A stretch of DNA of 64,000 bases, from NCBI GenBank assembly GCA_022826155.1, contig JAJDVL010000004.1:1-64000 (forward strand), given 5' to 3'. The stretch is from Prochlorococcaceae cyanobacterium jk18x22bins.40 (GTDB taxonomy: Bacteria; Cyanobacteriota; Cyanobacteriia; PCC-6307; Cyanobiaceae). The notes under the pieces were generated by a model. The model made no database searches. It was not told where the DNA came from and worked only from the letters and a program-made list of their open reading frames with translations. Made by a program: the position numbers and the translations under genes. How positions within the stretch are numbered: the first letter of the stretch is position 1; the number at the start of each line of letters is the position of its first letter. Below are positions 4,132 through 56,577 of this stretch, in pieces.

Positions 4132-4797
4132 TTATGGTCCCAATTCTGTTGGATTTTCTCTACACCTTATGAAATTATGGTCATTTATAGAGTTTGTGTT
4201 GTCATCAATTAGATAGAGATTCTCTAAGCTAGCTGGCAAATTTGGCAGACAAGTTAAGTTGTTGCCCCATAACCAGAGTGCCCGTAAAGACCTAAGTCTG
4301 TTGAAAATGTTTGGCTGCTGGCGCCATAGATCGTCGCTTAAGTTATTATTATCTAGTGCAAGTACTTGTAAATTATGAAGTTCACTGAAGACTTCTTCTG
4401 GTAAATCGTTTAGATTATTTTCATGCAGTGTGAGTCTTTGTAAATTATGAAGCCCATTGAAGATTTCTTCCGGCAAATTACTTAAGTTATTATTATTTAA
4501 GTAGAGATATTTTAGATTGTTAAGTTCTTTGAAGGATTCTGCTGGTAGGTTTTCTAGATCCTTGGAGCTTAGGTCGAGTATTGTACATTCTTTCCTAGAA
4601 TATATTTTATTATTAAAGATATCGTGATAGTAGATCTTGTTATTAGAACTACGGTAACAAAATTCTGCTAGCGCTGGAGGCGCTGGAGCGAAGAAGAGGA
4701 GACCAACGACTGGAACTGCAGAGAAGATAAGTGGAGCGTCCCATGAGATCCATGTCTGGATCTGTCTCAGAAAAGGTTTGAGACCGGCAGCAGACAC
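4132..4797 (-). CDS. Secreted leucine-rich-repeat protein
   Basis: This 221-residue protein starts at GTG 4797, which has a strong ribosome-binding site (AGGAAGGGAG, about 6 nt spacing). The longer frame from ATG 4980 would give an implausible 105-residue leader. From GTG the N-terminus is a long signal peptide whose hydrophobic core (PLIFSAVPVVGLLFFAPA) ends PPALA. The mature part has a short Cys-containing cap, then about five 24-residue LRRs (LKYLYLNNNNLSNLPEEIF, LQRLTLHENNLNDLPEEVF, LQVLALDNNNLS, LRALWLWGNNLTCLPNLP) and a capping end (LENLYLIDDNTNS, then FIRCRENPTELGP). Secretion and ligand binding are inferred from the repeat type. The gene heads a minus-strand run of surface-protein genes. 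Confidence 0.8.
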   Translation of the reverse strand: MSAAGLKPFLRQIQTWISWDAPLIFSAVPVVGLLFFAPAPPALAEFCYRSSNNKIYYHDIFNNKIYSRKECTILDLSSKDLENLPAESFKELNNLKYLYLNNNNLSNLPEEIFNGLHNLQRLTLHENNLNDLPEEVFSELHNLQVLALDNNNLSDDLWRQQPNIFNRLRSLRALWLWGNNLTCLPNLPASLENLYLIDDNTNSINDHNFIRCRENPTELGP

Positions 4798-5005
4798 CCC
4801 TACTCCCTTCCTGGGGGCAGTGGGTAAGGACGTGGAGGCAAGCTTCTGAGGGTGGTTGGCGTGGTGCTGGTTTCTTTTAGTCCCTCCCTGCCGAGCAGAT
4901 GCATTCAAAAAGGTCAGCTCCTGTTTGCGCTTCTCCATCCTGCGGGAGAAGGAGAAGCTGGCACTTTTCAGCCGTCGCAAGCAAACCCTCTTAAGAGATT
5001 CTTCA

Positions 5006-11226: not shown

Positions 11227-12060
11227 ATGGTTGGGTTGGGGTATCTCTTGCGTCGCGCCTGTTGGCTGCTGATGGCTGCCCTGGTGGCAGGCTGTGCCAC
11301 CAGCCCCACGGGCCGGCAGCAATTCATGTTGGTGTCTCCGGACGCCGCCGTCTCCATGGCGCAGGCGGCTTATATGGACACCTTGCGGCAGCTTGCCCGC
11401 AGGGGAAAGCTGATGAACGACCCGCAGTTGGCGGAGCGCATGGCGCGGATTACGGGCCGGTTGGTGGCCGTAGCGGTGGAGGAGTACCCCCACACGGCCC
11501 GTTGGGCGTGGAGCGTGGCCCTGGTGGACGATGCCGACGTTCTCAATGCCTGGGCCATGGCGGGGGGACGCATGGCCGTCTTCCGGGGCCTGATCGAGAC
11601 TCTGGACCTCAGCGATGCGGAAATCGCCCACATCATGGGCCATGAAATTGCCCACGCCGTTGCCAATCACCATGCGGAACGCATGTCCATGGTGCTGGCC
11701 CAGAACCTGGCGGTTTCCGTGGTGAAGCAGAACACGGAGCAGGATTCCCAGGCCGCTCCCATTGCCAACACCGTGGCCACCGTGGCCCTCACCCTCCCCA
11801 ACAGCCGCAGTGGCGAAGAGGAGGCGGACAACCTGGGCATGAGGATGGCCGTCAAGGCTGGCTACGATCCCCAGGCGGCGGTGACCCTATGGCAAAAGAT
11901 GGCAGACCATGGCGGCCCCAGGCCACCTGAATTCCTCAGCACCCATCCCGATCCCGCCAGTCGCATCACGGCTCTGTCCGCCTTGGTGGATGATGTTCAA
12001 AATCTTCAGCCGGCCGTGCCGCCTGAACCCCATGGGGTGCGGATTTACAGCGCCGAATGA
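11227..12060 (+). CDS. M48-family metalloprotease lipoprotein
   Basis: This 277-residue protein has an N-terminal lipoprotein signal (ACWLLMAALVAGC, lipobox LVAGC near residue 20) and the zinc protease motif HEIAH with a downstream ExxxAD glutamate (GEEEADNLGMRMAV). This is the arrangement of BepA/LoiP-like periplasmic quality-control proteases. The repeated CATSPTGRQQFMLVS segment after the lipobox is typical of the family. ATG 11227 is preferred over an upstream GTG at 11194 because it puts the charged n-region directly before the hydrophobic core. Its stop overlaps the FN3 gene start (ATGA), indicating translational coupling, so it may process or help assemble that envelope protein (inference). 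Confidence 0.9.
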   Translation: MVGLGYLLRRACWLLMAALVAGCATSPTGRQQFMLVSPDAAVSMAQAAYMDTLRQLARRGKLMNDPQLAERMARITGRLVAVAVEEYPHTARWAWSVALVDDADVLNAWAMAGGRMAVFRGLIETLDLSDAEIAHIMGHEIAHAVANHHAERMSMVLAQNLAVSVVKQNTEQDSQAAPIANTVATVALTLPNSRSGEEEADNLGMRMAVKAGYDPQAAVTLWQKMADHGGPRPPEFLSTHPDPASRITALSALVDDVQNLQPAVPPEPHGVRIYSAE

Positions 12061-14822
12061 AAATGAAGAAGACAAAGACCGGGAATCCAATTGCCGCCGA
12101 CAACCCCCCTCCACCCGGGTTGCGGAAACCAGAGGAGTCAATTGTTGGTCTGGCCACGCTGTTGGCCTTCTACCTGGGCCCGTTGGCCACAGTGGAGGCG
12201 GCCGGCTGCCTGACGGCGCCCCCCTGCAAAGAACTGAGTCCGTCCTCCCCGGTAACGGAGCAACACCTTGGGTTTCTGGCCACAACCCCTGCCAATGCAC
12301 AGACAGCGTCGCCGTTACAGCTTACGGTCACACCCGGCAACAGCACCCTGACGGTGCGTTGGGAGCCACCAATTGGTTATGAAAACTCTCAAAGTATTGA
12401 ATACGATATTGAATACTCCGAGGATGGCGGTTCCACTTGGTGGCCCTGGCATCTATCGTCCCGGTTGGAACATTTGACGGTGACTATTCTGGGTGTGAAT
12501 AACGGCGCCACTTATGTGGTGCGTGTGAGAGCCCGAGACAGCCAGGGTGGTGGAGCATGGGCTGCTTCGGCAAGCGCAACGCCAGTCGGTGTTCCAGCAG
12601 CACCGACCCGGCTTGACATACTGTCAGGGAATCAAACGCTGGAACTGACTTGGGTTGCTCCTGTTGATAACGGTGGCTCTGGAATTCAAGATTATGACGT
12701 TCAATATTCCAACGACGGCGGTGTGACATCAACGCTGTGGGATGAATCAACAGAATCCAATGCTTTGAGCGAAGAAATTACCAATCTCAATAACGGCACC
12801 ATCTATCATCTGCGGGTGCGGGCAAGAAATAACGTGGGCCATGGGCCGTGGTCAGGCTGGGTGTCGGGTCAGCCGGCCACCACCCCTGCCGCACCACATC
12901 CCCCCACCTTGACATCAGGTAACCGCCAACTTCATGTTGGCTGGGATACACCTGCCAATGACGGCGGGGCTCCAATTCACGGCTACACCATCCAATATTC
13001 GAACGATAACGGCTCCACCTGGAACAATTGGTCCATCCCGGCAGATTCACAACACTTCCTGCGCACGGTCATCACGGGTCTTCACAACGGCACCTCCTAT
13101 AGCGTACAGGTGAGAGCACACAACCATCAGGGGTATGGGCCATGGTCGGATCCGGCAATGGATCAACCTGTCGGCACACCCGCGGCACCGGCACGGCCAA
13201 TCTTGACGCCAGGCAATAAGGAGCTGCATGTCCGTTGGGATATCCCTAGTGATGATGGGGGCACACCGATCAGCAGCTATGATGTTCAATACTCATATGA
13301 TAACGGCGCCACCTGGAATGAATGGGATGTTTCCATCGATTCGCAAAGCCAGCAGACAACAATCACGAGTTTAGAGAACGGCGTAGTCCACCACGTCCAG
13401 GTGAGAGCCAGCAACAGCCAGGGTCATGGGGCCTGGTCCACGGCAGCCCTGGATCGCCCCGCCGGATTCCCCTCGGCGCCCACACGGCTCACCGTAGCGC
13501 CCCGTCCCAATCAACTGGAGGTGGTCTGGGATCACCCCTTCGATGACGGGGGAGCGACAATTATCGGCTACGACATTCAGTACTCGAATGATCGCGGCGC
13601 CACCTGGAGGCCATGGCATCTGTCATCACCATTAGATGATCTAACAGCCAACATCCTGGGCTTGAGTAACGGCAATGCTTACATCGTACGAGTGAGAGCA
13701 AAAAATAGCCAAGGACAGGGACCATGGTTGGCATCGGAAAGCACAATGCCGTTGGGTGTGCCAACCGCGCCGACACAGCTTAGTCTAAGCCCAGGTGATC
13801 GCAAATTAGAGCTAAGCTGGGCTGCGCCTGCTGATGATAGTGGATCTAAAGTCAGGGAGTACGACATTCAATACTCCGACAATGCCGGCGCCACCTGGAG
13901 GCCATGGAACGGGATCATCAACGGGCAAAGCCTGCAAGAAACAATCACGGGGTTGGACAACGGTACGATGTATCAGGTGCAAGTGAGAGCCAGCAACAGC
14001 CAAGGTGATGGACCATGGTCGGTCCGGGGAGAGGGTCAGCCGGCAACAACACCAGCCGCCCCGGATCCACCCGCCTTGACGCCAGACAACCGCGAGCTAC
14101 AGGTCCATTGGGATGCCCCCGACAATGATGGTGGCGCTCCGATCACCGGTTATCATGTTCAATATTCTGATGGTCCTGGTTCCACTTGGCGGGAGTGGCA
14201 CATCTCGGCAGACGCACAGCCCGTCTTGCAAACAAGAATCGCCGGCCTTGAAAATGGCGCCACCTATGCCGTGCAGGTGAAAGCAAGGAATGCCCAAGGC
14301 GATGGACCATGGTCGGACTCGGCGCTGGATGAACCAGTGGGCGTTCCAATCGCGCCGCCATCTCTAACTTTGACTCCAGGCAATGGCCAGCTCCATGTCG
14401 ACTGGGATGCCCCCAACGACGATGGCGGCACGCCGATTAGCAGCTACGGGATTCGCTACTCAAATGACAGCGGCTCCACCTGGACCGCATGGGATGTCCC
14501 CATCGACCCACAAAACCTTCAATCAACCATCACAGGTCTACAAAACGGTACGATTTACCAAGTCCAAGTGAGAGCCACCAATCGTCAAGGTGACGGGCCA
14601 TGGTCACCCTTGGGAGAGGGCCAGCCAAGACTTCTCCCGCCGCTCCCACAGTGGATTCAACTACCCTTGTCTGGATTAATATGGCCTATCATCATTGCAA
14701 TTATTGCCAGTTCCATTGCCGGCACCTTCAACATCAATATCGGGAAGGCCTTGAAAGATCGCTTGTCCTCATTGCAACGGAAACCTCCGAAGAACCAGGA
14801 AGACAAGTCGGATGGTGCCTAA
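12057..14822 (+). CDS. Membrane-anchored protein with eight fibronectin type III domains
   Basis: This 921-residue protein has a charged, Pro-rich leader and hydrophobic segment (SIVGLATLLAFYLGPLATVEA), then eight FN3 domains of about 97 residues (about 80-860). Each holds a W near strand B, an YxxxYSxDxGxTW segment, and NGTxYxVxVRAxNxQGxGPWS. After a Pro-rich spacer there is one transmembrane helix (LIWPIIIAIIASSIAGTF) and a basic tail, so the domains are displayed outside and anchored at the C-terminus. Domains 1-4 match 5-8 in order, including the inter-domain linkers (QPATTP after 2 and 6, PVGTP/PVGVP after 3 and 7), showing a four-domain block duplication. FN3 proteins are among the eukaryotic-like proteins of sponge symbionts; a host-adhesion role is inferred. 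Coupled to the M48 protease by a 4-nt overlap. Confidence 0.9.
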   Translation: MKMKKTKTGNPIAADNPPPPGLRKPEESIVGLATLLAFYLGPLATVEAAGCLTAPPCKELSPSSPVTEQHLGFLATTPANAQTASPLQLTVTPGNSTLTVRWEPPIGYENSQSIEYDIEYSEDGGSTWWPWHLSSRLEHLTVTILGVNNGATYVVRVRARDSQGGGAWAASASATPVGVPAAPTRLDILSGNQTLELTWVAPVDNGGSGIQDYDVQYSNDGGVTSTLWDESTESNALSEEITNLNNGTIYHLRVRARNNVGHGPWSGWVSGQPATTPAAPHPPTLTSGNRQLHVGWDTPANDGGAPIHGYTIQYSNDNGSTWNNWSIPADSQHFLRTVITGLHNGTSYSVQVRAHNHQGYGPWSDPAMDQPVGTPAAPARPILTPGNKELHVRWDIPSDDGGTPISSYDVQYSYDNGATWNEWDVSIDSQSQQTTITSLENGVVHHVQVRASNSQGHGAWSTAALDRPAGFPSAPTRLTVAPRPNQLEVVWDHPFDDGGATIIGYDIQYSNDRGATWRPWHLSSPLDDLTANILGLSNGNAYIVRVRAKNSQGQGPWLASESTMPLGVPTAPTQLSLSPGDRKLELSWAAPADDSGSKVREYDIQYSDNAGATWRPWNGIINGQSLQETITGLDNGTMYQVQVRASNSQGDGPWSVRGEGQPATTPAAPDPPALTPDNRELQVHWDAPDNDGGAPITGYHVQYSDGPGSTWREWHISADAQPVLQTRIAGLENGATYAVQVKARNAQGDGPWSDSALDEPVGVPIAPPSLTLTPGNGQLHVDWDAPNDDGGTPISSYGIRYSNDSGSTWTAWDVPIDPQNLQSTITGLQNGTIYQVQVRATNRQGDGPWSPLGEGQPRLLPPLPQWIQLPLSGLIWPIIIAIIASSIAGTFNINIGKALKDRLSSLQRKPPKNQEDKSDGA

Positions 14823-51571: not shown

Positions 51572-51618
51572 GGTGTGGTGAGAACGCCCATACCCGCTTT
51601 GTGTGGAGGCAACCGACC

Positions 51619-53061
51619 ATGCTGACCCGGTTGGAAGTGGACGGCTTCAAAAACCTGGTGAATTTTTCCCTGGATTTCGGGCCATACACCTGCATCGCTG
51701 GCCCTAACGGAGCAGGCAAGTCGAATATCTTCGACGCTATTCGCTTTCTGTCTTTACTCACCGACCATACCATCAACGAGGCGGCGCTGCAAATACGGAA
51801 TGCAGGTGAAGAGACAGGAAATATACAGGATTTGTTTTTCTTTGATATTAAGGAAAGTGATCTTCGCATGCGATTTTTGGCACAGATGATTGTCGGTAAG
51901 AACGTACGAGATGATTTTGGTCGTGAAGCCGAAGCGTCGTCCTCATTTTTACAGTACGAAATTGTTTTTCGGTATGCGGAGCCTTCTCTCAAAACCGGTT
52001 TTTTGGGCGGATTACTATTGGAAAAAGAGAGCCTAGACTATATTACCCAAGGTGAAGCAATCCGCCGCTTAAAGTTTCCAAACAGAAAAAAGAAATTCCT
52101 GGATAGTGTAGTATACAATAATCGTAGGGGTGCTGGATTTATTTCAACCAAACTGGATCCCCAAACCGGGCAAGCGGCTATCTCTGTCCACCAGGATGGA
52201 GGCTCAAGAGGCCGGGAACGACCGTCGCCCGCGACAATGGCTACGAAGACCATCATTGGCACAGAAAACACCTCGTTCACCCCCACCATCCTGGCAGCAC
52301 GTAACGAGATGCAGAGTTGGCGTATTCTAGCCCTCGATCCAGCCGCCATGCGTCGTCCAGACCACTCCACACAATTGCCCGGAATTGCCGCCAACGGAGC
52401 CCACATCCCAGCAACATTACGGCATCTTGCTCATACATTGGCTCAAGACGACCCTGAATATGATGTGTATGCACAGGTGTCGAGTCGTTTATCGGAGCTG
52501 GTGCCAGTGCAAAGCGTGAGCGTTGACGAAGACAAGCAGCGCCAACGACTGGCATTGGAGATTATGGAACGTTCGAAATTGAAACTCCAGGCCAACTCCA
52601 TATCAGATGGTACACTGCGGTTCCTGGCATTGGTGGCGCTTTCCGAAACCGTCAACGAAAGCATGGTCCTCTGCATGGAAGAACCAGAAAACGGGATTCA
52701 TCCGGCAAAGCTTAACGCCATGAACCGATTGCTACATGAGATAGCCGTGGATCCAGAGGAAGCCGTAGCTCCCGACAATCCTCTGCGGCAAGTAATTGTA
52801 GCAACCCACTCACCGTATTTCGTGCAACTTCAAAACAAAAATGATTTGGTCTTGGCCAAAAATCCGGCAGTGAGAAGTGCTGCGGGAAACGCCGTCTTCC
52901 CCCTAAAGTGCTGCTCCTTGAGGGGTTCCTGGCGTGATCGAAGCGGCAATGATCGAGAGCGAAAATCTTCAGGGGTAGGACTGCTGGACTTGCAATCCTA
53001 CATAGCGCCCCCAGAATATGTACAACTAGGTCTTCCTACAACTTTTGAGGAGATGAAATAA
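51619..53061 (+). CDS. AAA/ABC-type ATPase of an OLD/PARIS-like pair
   Basis: This 480-residue SMC/RecF-like ATPase has Walker A CIAGPNGAGKSNIFDAI (about residue 26), an ABC-type signature (SISDGTLRFLALVAL), Walker B with catalytic Glu (MVLCMEEPENGIHP) and the switch His in VIVATHSPYFVQ. The middle 200 residues are AT-rich and variable. ATG 51619 has GGAGG nine nt upstream. It overlaps the next gene (TAATG). Two-gene sets of this ATPase type with a small TOPRIM-like protein are common in anti-phage systems; the precise family is not certain. Confidence 0.8.
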   Translation: MLTRLEVDGFKNLVNFSLDFGPYTCIAGPNGAGKSNIFDAIRFLSLLTDHTINEAALQIRNAGEETGNIQDLFFFDIKESDLRMRFLAQMIVGKNVRDDFGREAEASSSFLQYEIVFRYAEPSLKTGFLGGLLLEKESLDYITQGEAIRRLKFPNRKKKFLDSVVYNNRRGAGFISTKLDPQTGQAAISVHQDGGSRGRERPSPATMATKTIIGTENTSFTPTILAARNEMQSWRILALDPAAMRRPDHSTQLPGIAANGAHIPATLRHLAHTLAQDDPEYDVYAQVSSRLSELVPVQSVSVDEDKQRQRLALEIMERSKLKLQANSISDGTLRFLALVALSETVNESMVLCMEEPENGIHPAKLNAMNRLLHEIAVDPEEAVAPDNPLRQVIVATHSPYFVQLQNKNDLVLAKNPAVRSAAGNAVFPLKCCSLRGSWRDRSGNDRERKSSGVGLLDLQSYIAPPEYVQLGLPTTFEEMK

Positions 53062-54163: not shown

Positions 54164-55114
54164 TCATTTCGGGTAGGGACCAAGGAATCTTACCCCGTTA
54201 AAATGAATCAAATGAGAGGGTGCATCAGCCACCCATACCTCAGTTTCCCAGGCGATTTCCCTAAGGTAGCGTCCCATGGTGGCCCGGTTGAGAAAGGCGG
54301 TCACATAGACCAGCCCAGCCGTTGATCCGGCAAACAGCTCAGCCAGTTCGGTGTGTCTTTTCCCATCAACCGGCCCGTGGCTGGTGACAGACTCCACCAA
54401 AAGCAACCAGTTTTTTGCGGTGTAGTGGAACACCACATCAGGCATTTTACTGTGGAAATCCACGTAGACGCCCAGCTTAGCCAGAAGCGTGTCGTCAAAA
54501 TAAGCCCACTTGTCTCCCGTGTCACCTGCATAGACCAACACACAATCCGGGGCGAAGCGGGGGGCGAAGTCTTCGATGACGGCCCGGATCAATACGCTGT
54601 GCTCACCAGGGCTAAAGGTGATGACTTTGCCCGGTGCAATTTGAACTGGGATGCGATTCTGCTCCCGTTCCTTGGCGTAACGAACAACCAGTGTTTCGCG
54701 CTGAGCCAGATAGGCGGCGAGGTTGTCATTCCATGATGAGGTGTCGAATTTACAAAGCAAGTTCAGTATTGCAGGTTCGATCTGATAGACCGTCCTCGGA
54801 CTATTCACTGGACGGTCCGGTTTGTCTGGATTACACAGGACCAAGCCAGCGTCACGAAATTGGTGCATGGACTGGCGGCGGAATGTCTCGCGGCTATTAG
54901 GAGCATAGTCCTTGCCATAATGCTTTCGTGCCCAATTCATGATTGGGGTGATCCCCATCAGTGGGTTTTCTGCGTCAGCCCATGTTTTCGCCGGTGTGAG
55001 GTTCAGCAGGGCCAGTAGGCAGAGGGCAGAACGCTCATTCTGTTGCGCGGGAGGCAGGCCCAGAGATTTGAGAATCTCCTGTGCAGCGTCTATGGCAGTT
55101 GTCCTGTGGTTCAT
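54164..55114 (-). CDS. BsuBI/PstI-type restriction endonuclease
   Basis: This 316-residue protein begins at ATG 55114, overlapping the methylase stop (ATGA). The helical N-terminal recognition-like half has AIDAAQEILKSLGLPPAQQN and NERSALCLLALLNLTPAKTW. The C-terminal PD-(D/E)xK-like nuclease domain has DCVLVYAGDTGDKWAYFDDT, MPDVVFHYTAKNWLLLVES, VTSHGPVDGKRHTEL. This is the BsuBI/PstI family, whose known members cut CTGCAG. Several CTGCAG sites exist in the window (for example 34151 and 41096), so methylation must protect them if the enzyme is active. Confidence 0.88.
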   Translation of the reverse strand: MNHRTTAIDAAQEILKSLGLPPAQQNERSALCLLALLNLTPAKTWADAENPLMGITPIMNWARKHYGKDYAPNSRETFRRQSMHQFRDAGLVLCNPDKPDRPVNSPRTVYQIEPAILNLLCKFDTSSWNDNLAAYLAQRETLVVRYAKEREQNRIPVQIAPGKVITFSPGEHSVLIRAVIEDFAPRFAPDCVLVYAGDTGDKWAYFDDTLLAKLGVYVDFHSKMPDVVFHYTAKNWLLLVESVTSHGPVDGKRHTELAELFAGSTAGLVYVTAFLNRATMGRYLREIAWETEVWVADAPSHLIHFNGVRFLGPYPK

Positions 55115-56577
55115 TTGGCCAAGGTGTCCAGCTTGGTGTCCATCTGGTCTTGCGTGAGCGTTCCTTGCTCCATGGCCCACGTGCCAAGTTGGATCAGTAT
55201 GTCACGGCTCGGATACGGCATCAGCTTGAGGTCGGTTGCATTCACCTGGGTATGGCCATTGAAGCGCCGGAAATGCTCATCCACTGCGGTGGTGTTCAAG
55301 AACAAGGCCAACCCACGGGCCAGTGCTTCGGGCAAGCCGTGCTTGTCCTCGTGAAGCAGGTTGATATGGTTCTCAAAGCCCAGGACGGAATGGTGTCCAA
55401 AGGCAGCAGGATCCACCACGCTGGCCACCACACGGTGCTTTTCTTCTTTTGATGAAAAGCGCCGCACTGCGCAATAAAACCCACTTGGATACAGCCACTT
55501 CTCCGTCTGATGGTTGTGCATGATCGCGTTCGGCTTTTTGAAGTCAGCCATGGGCCACACTGTCCCGGTCATGCGCAAGTGGTTAGGATAGATCAGGGGT
55601 ACGGTGCCCTCCTCAGGCATGGGTCGCAGGTGTGCTTTCATGCGGAAATCAACCACTGGCCCGGTGGAGACCTTGACACCAAGATCAGCCAGGGAGTAGC
55701 TCACGGCGGGCAATCGCTCGATGGCGGTCTTTTCTGGCGTTGTGGGAACATGGATCAGCCGTTCAGGGACATCAGGAAGCACAATCCGCTCGAACGGGTG
55801 TTCATGGATGGCGAAGTCGGCAAAAGTGTCATCGGTGGAGGTGGAAACCGTCACCGGCTTCTGTTGGCCACCCCGCTCCAGGCGGATGATGATGGTTTCC
55901 TGCAGCACCTGATCGCCCTTGAACGGCTTATTGCGGGACGCGAACAGGTGCATGTGGCGGATTGCCGCCCGGGCCAGGATAAAATCACGAAATGGCCGGT
56001 AGTAGGGTCCGTTGCAGAAGCTGCGGGGGGTGATGGCCACGATCTGTCCACCCGGCGCGGCCTCGGCCACAGCCAGGGCCACAAAGGCGGAATAGAGATT
56101 GACCGTCTCGATGCCGACACGGCGCAGGGCCAATCGGTGGGCTGAGTGGCTGCTGATCTTCTTGTAAGGAGGATTGAGAATCACATGGGTGTAGCCTCGA
56201 TTCCGTAAGCCTCGGGCAGTGGCCAGTTGGATGTAATCGCCCGCGATGATGCGGGATGTGGCGCGGCTGTATCTGGCCATGTGCCGTGCAAGGTGGTCCC
56301 GCAAGTGATCGTCCATCTCGTAGGCCGTTGCCTCCAGGGACGCAAAGCTAAAGCCACCCATCACCCAGCGGTCGAGAAAGGCACAGGACAACGCCCCCAT
56401 GCCCGCACCCGCATCCAACAGACGGCAAGTCTGCAGGGGACTGGGTGGAAAGAGGGATGCCATGAAGCGGGCCACGCTTGCTGGCGTCATGAACTGGCCA
56501 AATTCGGCCTTGCGCTTCCGCGTGATGGTGAACGCCTTCTCCCGGTGCATGACGCCTGCAATGTCGAGTTGGAGCAT
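55111..56577 (-). CDS. Adenine-specific DNA methyltransferase of the BsuBI/PstI system
   Basis: This 488-residue methyltransferase has the SAM-binding DAGAGMGALSCAFLDRWVM (about residue 55), the catalytic NPPY motif HVILNPPYKKISS (about 135), and the later GPVVDFRMKAHLRPMPEEGT region. The N-terminal FGQFMTPASVARFMASLF is typical of N6-adenine methylases of type II systems. It precedes the endonuclease with a 4-nt overlap. The methylase-first order lets protection appear before cutting. Confidence 0.92.
   Translation of the reverse strand: MLQLDIAGVMHREKAFTITRKRKAEFGQFMTPASVARFMASLFPPSPLQTCRLLDAGAGMGALSCAFLDRWVMGGFSFASLEATAYEMDDHLRDHLARHMARYSRATSRIIAGDYIQLATARGLRNRGYTHVILNPPYKKISSHSAHRLALRRVGIETVNLYSAFVALAVAEAAPGGQIVAITPRSFCNGPYYRPFRDFILARAAIRHMHLFASRNKPFKGDQVLQETIIIRLERGGQQKPVTVSTSTDDTFADFAIHEHPFERIVLPDVPERLIHVPTTPEKTAIERLPAVSYSLADLGVKVSTGPVVDFRMKAHLRPMPEEGTVPLIYPNHLRMTGTVWPMADFKKPNAIMHNHQTEKWLYPSGFYCAVRRFSSKEEKHRVVASVVDPAAFGHHSVLGFENHINLLHEDKHGLPEALARGLALFLNTTAVDEHFRRFNGHTQVNATDLKLMPYPSRDILIQLGTWAMEQGTLTQDQMDTKLDTLAK

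Follow-up and report, generated by a model that had tools for sequence, protein, structure and literature searches.

Support for a four-domain block duplication in the eight-domain FN3 protein of a Cyanobiaceae genome

Locus and domain layout

The window, by which we mean the whole stretch of 64,000 nucleotides that was analysed, derives from a genome of ~2 Mb, has a G+C content of ~61% and carries RuBisCO and carboxysome-like genes that were recognised by eye. Its positions 12057-14822 on the forward strand contain an open reading frame of 921 aa with an ATG start. Eight stretches of the encoded protein match FN3 (Pfam PF00041, E=1.2e-100, 330 bits versus a cut-off of 25), and this score above the curated cut-off, together with the strand pattern of a structural model and fold-search matches to FN3 arrays, makes it a member of this Pfam family. 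The eight domains span aa 84-861 and are flanked by two regions. The N-terminal region of 83 aa (aa 1-83; 12057..12305), for which no Pfam match was found, consists of a basic n-region, a hydrophobic segment at approximately aa 28-46 and a linker that ends in ANAQ. The C-terminal region of 60 aa (aa 862-921; 14640..14819) consists of a Pro-rich stem, a hydrophobic segment at approximately aa 871-889 and a K/R-rich tail. Five of the eight domains carry in their middle hairpin an Asp-box motif (SxDxGxTW), which is typical of sialidase-type propellers (window 12417-14482).

An ortholog of 957 aa was identified in the metagenome-assembled genome "Cyanobacteria bacterium CAR3_bin_5" (JAPOTR010000059.1), another species of the same genus. 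It is 69-71% identical to the window protein and contains eight FN3 domains in the same order. No other convincing full-length relative came up in the 60 genomes searched or in the GTDB contig collection; in the latter, a single-protein query found nothing and an alignment query found only this ortholog. One of the nine other genomes of the genus has a full-length relative, and no match with E<=0.001 was found in 50 genomes outside the genus. Since five further genomes of the genus, each at least 95% complete, lack a full-length copy, we regard the gene as accessory. The comparison of domain number between strains, proposed beforehand as a check, showed no variation, the sole other carrier also having eight domains.

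Repeat structure and domain phylogeny

The original prediction held that domains 1-4 pair in order with domains 5-8, as a consequence of a block duplication rather than of single-domain expansion, and every motif it quoted is present in the protein. The block duplication is borne out by the comparison of the two blocks, aa 84-472 and aa 473-861, which both measure 389 aa and align without gaps with 214 out of 389 residues identical (55%). This offset forms the peak of the ungapped self-comparison, as compared to 30-37% for the remaining domain-multiple offsets, such that best partners are found at a constant offset of four domains. The same period of four is seen in the spacings of the conserved G-x-W of strand G, which are 97, 98, 97, 97, 97, 98 and 97 aa. 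When all 105 possible pairings were scored, 1/5+2/6+3/7+4/8 came out on top with both orthologs pooled as well as in the window protein alone, and second in the ortholog alone.

A maximum likelihood tree was built from 16 domains, eight from the window protein and eight from the ortholog, and a second tree included, as outgroups, a further 34 FN3 domains of the genus. The pairing of domain 1 (aa 84-180; 12306..12596) with domain 5 (aa 473-569; 13473..13763), at which the second block begins, is firm: both are recognised by Pfam, they are 53% identical and {1,5} has a support of 98.7/99 in the 16-domain tree and of 100/99 upon addition of the outgroups, where the 16 domains still form one clade (100/99). 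Domain 2 (aa 181-277; 12597..12887), also recognised by Pfam, and domain 6 (aa 570-666; 13764..14054) have the GQPATTPAAP linker in common and fall together in a clade supported by 99.3/94. For domain 3 (aa 278-375; 12888..13181) and domain 7 (aa 667-764; 14055..14348), which are 62% identical and with 98 aa each carry a one-residue insertion, and for domain 4 (aa 376-472; 13182..13472) and domain 8 (aa 765-861; 14349..14639), which are 57% identical, a value tied with those of domain 4 to domains 3 and 7, the predicted pairing is compatible with the tree without being separated individually. Here the domains 3, 4, 7 and 8 are too alike, being mutually 51-62% identical in the window protein, to be separated by alignments of one hundred columns. 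The full block topology with all four pairs constrained is not rejected (AU p=0.159). With outgroups, 2/6 and 3/7 fit at no cost, and imposing 4/8 lowers the likelihood by 8 log units (p=0.21).

The similarity among domains 3, 4, 7 and 8 is also what would be expected from stepwise growth, in which 1/5 and 2/6 derive from a larger duplication, and the four others from separate duplications of one or two domains or from homogenisation by gene conversion. This is in line with the best free tree, a ladder that does not itself pair 3/7 or 4/8, with the ortholog alone, in which 3/4+7/8 scores slightly above the block pairing, and with the second half of domain 6, which is nearest to domain 8. However, the topology 1/5,2/6,3/4,7/8 is rejected with an AU p of 0.032 and {7,8} as a clade has a p of 0.058, the one-residue insertion is found in domains 3 and 7 alone in both species, and stepwise growth has to contend with the exact match in length of the blocks and the period-four spacing. 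We therefore consider stepwise growth unlikely. Independent expansion of single domains in each half, or duplication of neighbours (1/2, 3/4, 5/6, 7/8), with the similarity resulting from common FN3 constraints, can practically be dismissed: the single clade of all sixteen domains does point to a recent common source, but separate growth of each half is rejected (AU p=1e-6), as are the neighbour pairs (p=0.0008) that had been named as the outcome contradicting the prediction.

An origin of the FN3 array by copying of the whole four-domain run, with later exchange at the sub-domain level, is thus the supported reading. As to the exchange, the pairings 6/8 and 4/7 are preferred when the C-terminal third of each domain is compared, and the likeness of the second half of domain 6 to domain 8 suggests that domain 6 is a mosaic that resulted from a later exchange between repeats.

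Timing and selection

Partner domains within a protein are 48-62% identical versus 64-78% for orthologous domains. Both this difference and the fact that the ortholog shares the eight-domain layout indicate that the duplication had taken place before the two species diverged. The dN/dS ratio between the orthologs is 0.235 overall; values of 0.12-0.25 were obtained for the domains, 0.14 for the C-terminal region and 0.71 for the N-terminal region, a pattern which indicates that the array and the anchor have been maintained and the leader has not. The two proteins are alike in their N- and C-terminal regions; the ortholog differs in having a longer charged C-terminal tail and different gene neighbours.

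Genomic setting

The gene blocks on either side of the FN3 gene do not adjoin each other in relatives. The GC3 of the FN3 gene is 0.58, whereas three other genes in the window have values of 0.77-0.81, and that of the ortholog is also lower, 0.62. A plasmid search gave no match and a phage search gave only generic FN3 similarity at ~30% identity. That the gene forms a conserved operon with the M48 peptidase upstream of it was considered and rejected: the neighbours of the ortholog differ, and in the relatives examined the M48 and thioesterase genes do not lie side by side. A CalX-beta-like fragment was found 3' of the petH-M48 pair in the CAR3_bin_5 genome (L062 2953-3333), hence the site of the window FN3 gene also holds repeat-protein sequence in that genome. 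The same genome contains an open frame of 2656 aa (L025 1-7968, reverse strand) in which FN3 alternates with Ig-like modules, some of the latter nearly identical.

Several other genes of the window were noted. A 919-aa open frame on the reverse strand (3-2759), which runs off the window, has cadherin-like/Ig-like segments followed by a weak terminal match to an autotransporter/outer-membrane barrel (1.5e-5, just below the Pfam cut-off); true surface display is more plausible for this product than for the FN3 protein. Near the FN3 gene, positions 4132-4980 (reverse strand) encode a short, eukaryotic-like leucine-rich-repeat protein (Pfam LRR_8) with an export-like N-terminus. Further away, a BsuBI/PstI-type restriction endonuclease adjoins an Eco57I-like methylase (54164-56577, reverse strand), with an AAA_21 ATPase nearby (51601-53061).

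Topology and sponge association

The hydrophobic segment at aa 28-46 has a Kyte-Doolittle value of 1.8, and the hydrophobic core and ANAQ are kept in the ortholog; judged from its sequence, the N-terminal region is likely an export signal. The C-terminal hydrophobic segment is stronger, with a value of 2.04, and is followed by a tail with seven K/R versus four D/E; segment and basic tail are likewise kept in the ortholog. A search for this C-terminal anchor in 151 genomes of the family yielded only the ortholog as a convincing match. Weaker matches on other proteins (E>=0.01) look like chance similarity of transmembrane segments and were discarded.

It had been predicted that the array is a long rod displayed from a C-terminal membrane anchor. 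This is partly supported. The hydrophobic segment with its basic tail is indeed present, but display outside the cell is doubtful: in a two-membrane bacterium, a signal-like N-terminus and a C-terminal transmembrane segment with basic tail predict placement in the inner membrane, and the array should face the periplasm from the cytoplasmic membrane. The rod is plausible. An AlphaFold model shows eight consecutive sandwich domains, although with a mean pLDDT of 65, a pTM of 0.33 and a two-row alignment this low-confidence model says nothing reliable on overall shape or anchor. Foldseek matches the model to FN3 arrays, titin and contactin among them. NCBIfam NF045522, which would indicate sorting of the exosortase/MYXO-CTERM type, is matched only via FN3, with 76.9 bits versus a cut-off of 150, so that the protein does not belong to that class.

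FN3 proteins have been reported in the sponge symbionts 'Ca. Synechococcus spongiarum' and 'Candidatus Synechococcus feldmannii', as opposed to 19 free-living relatives examined in the same source, according to its passages on these proteins (PMC6506613). Based on that report and on genome features, the genus of the window genome appears to be sponge-associated and may belong to the lineage of those symbionts. The same passages propose that the sponge-cyanobacterial FN3 proteins bind host matrix or integrins, which, together with the rarity of carriers within the genus that is often seen for accessory host-interaction genes, would fit a host-binding adhesin on the cell surface. We consider this possible but doubtful for the window protein. 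Contrary to what is expected of an autotransporter or outer-membrane adhesin, no beta-barrel family is among its Pfam matches and its C-terminus is a single hydrophobic segment, which with the basic tail suggests the inner membrane; the protein also lacks an RGD motif. That the array is an inner-membrane ruler which reaches across the periplasm to peptidoglycan or outer membrane is very unlikely. Such a ruler would be about 28-30 nm long, taking ~3.5 nm per FN3 module; the block duplication would then have doubled its reach, and the protein would be a dedicated envelope-spanning contact protein of sponge cyanobacteria.

Discussion

We consider it likely that a single four-domain block duplication, with later local exchange, occurred in an exported, C-terminally anchored FN3 protein that functions as a periplasm-facing accessory envelope or adhesion protein. 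The ancestor would have been an exported protein with the same type of anchor, whose four FN3 domains had by then become distinct. Its array would have doubled before the two carrier species split, through a single in-frame tandem duplication that spanned ~1,167 nt (389 aa) and for which slippage or unequal recombination between the ~291-nt repeats is the presumed mechanism. Purifying selection then acted on the copies as they diverged, and they would have undergone at least one local exchange afterwards, that between the second half of domain 6 and domain 8. The product is envisaged as a single-pass membrane protein in which the eight FN3 modules may serve as extended spacer or binding arm towards the periplasm. 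In sponge-associated cyanobacteria it would most likely act as an accessory protein of the envelope or in adhesion, the latter in line with what has been proposed for FN3 proteins of the sponge symbionts.

Among the closest known systems, the proteins of 'Ca. S. feldmannii' and 'Ca. S. spongiarum' are likewise multi-FN3 proteins of sponge-associated cyanobacteria. In the architectures drawn for them, cadherin and autotransporter domains occur as well, whereas the window protein has only FN3 and a C-terminal transmembrane segment; block duplication is not mentioned in the passages that describe them (PMC6506613). Titin A-band FN3 tandems are the best match of solved structure by both sequence and fold search, but only the domain type is common, the top matches of the fold search showing ~18-19% identity, and titin mixes Ig and FN3, which the window protein does not. 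The expansion of FN3 arrays is reported to proceed mostly in four-domain units (Bjorklund et al. 2006, PMC1553488), the unit also seen here. Whereas that FN3 set was drawn from 24 proteomes, the window protein is a bacterial instance, in which the array doubled once.

The window protein is therefore a well-supported further instance of a known four-domain FN3 pattern, within a class of symbiont proteins that is itself known, and leaves existing knowledge of how FN3 arrays grow unchanged. What it adds is a clear case, from bacteria, in which duplication of a whole block doubled an FN3 array and an ortholog dates the event relative to a species split; the gene is accessory and belongs to an apparently sponge-associated genus of cyanobacteria.
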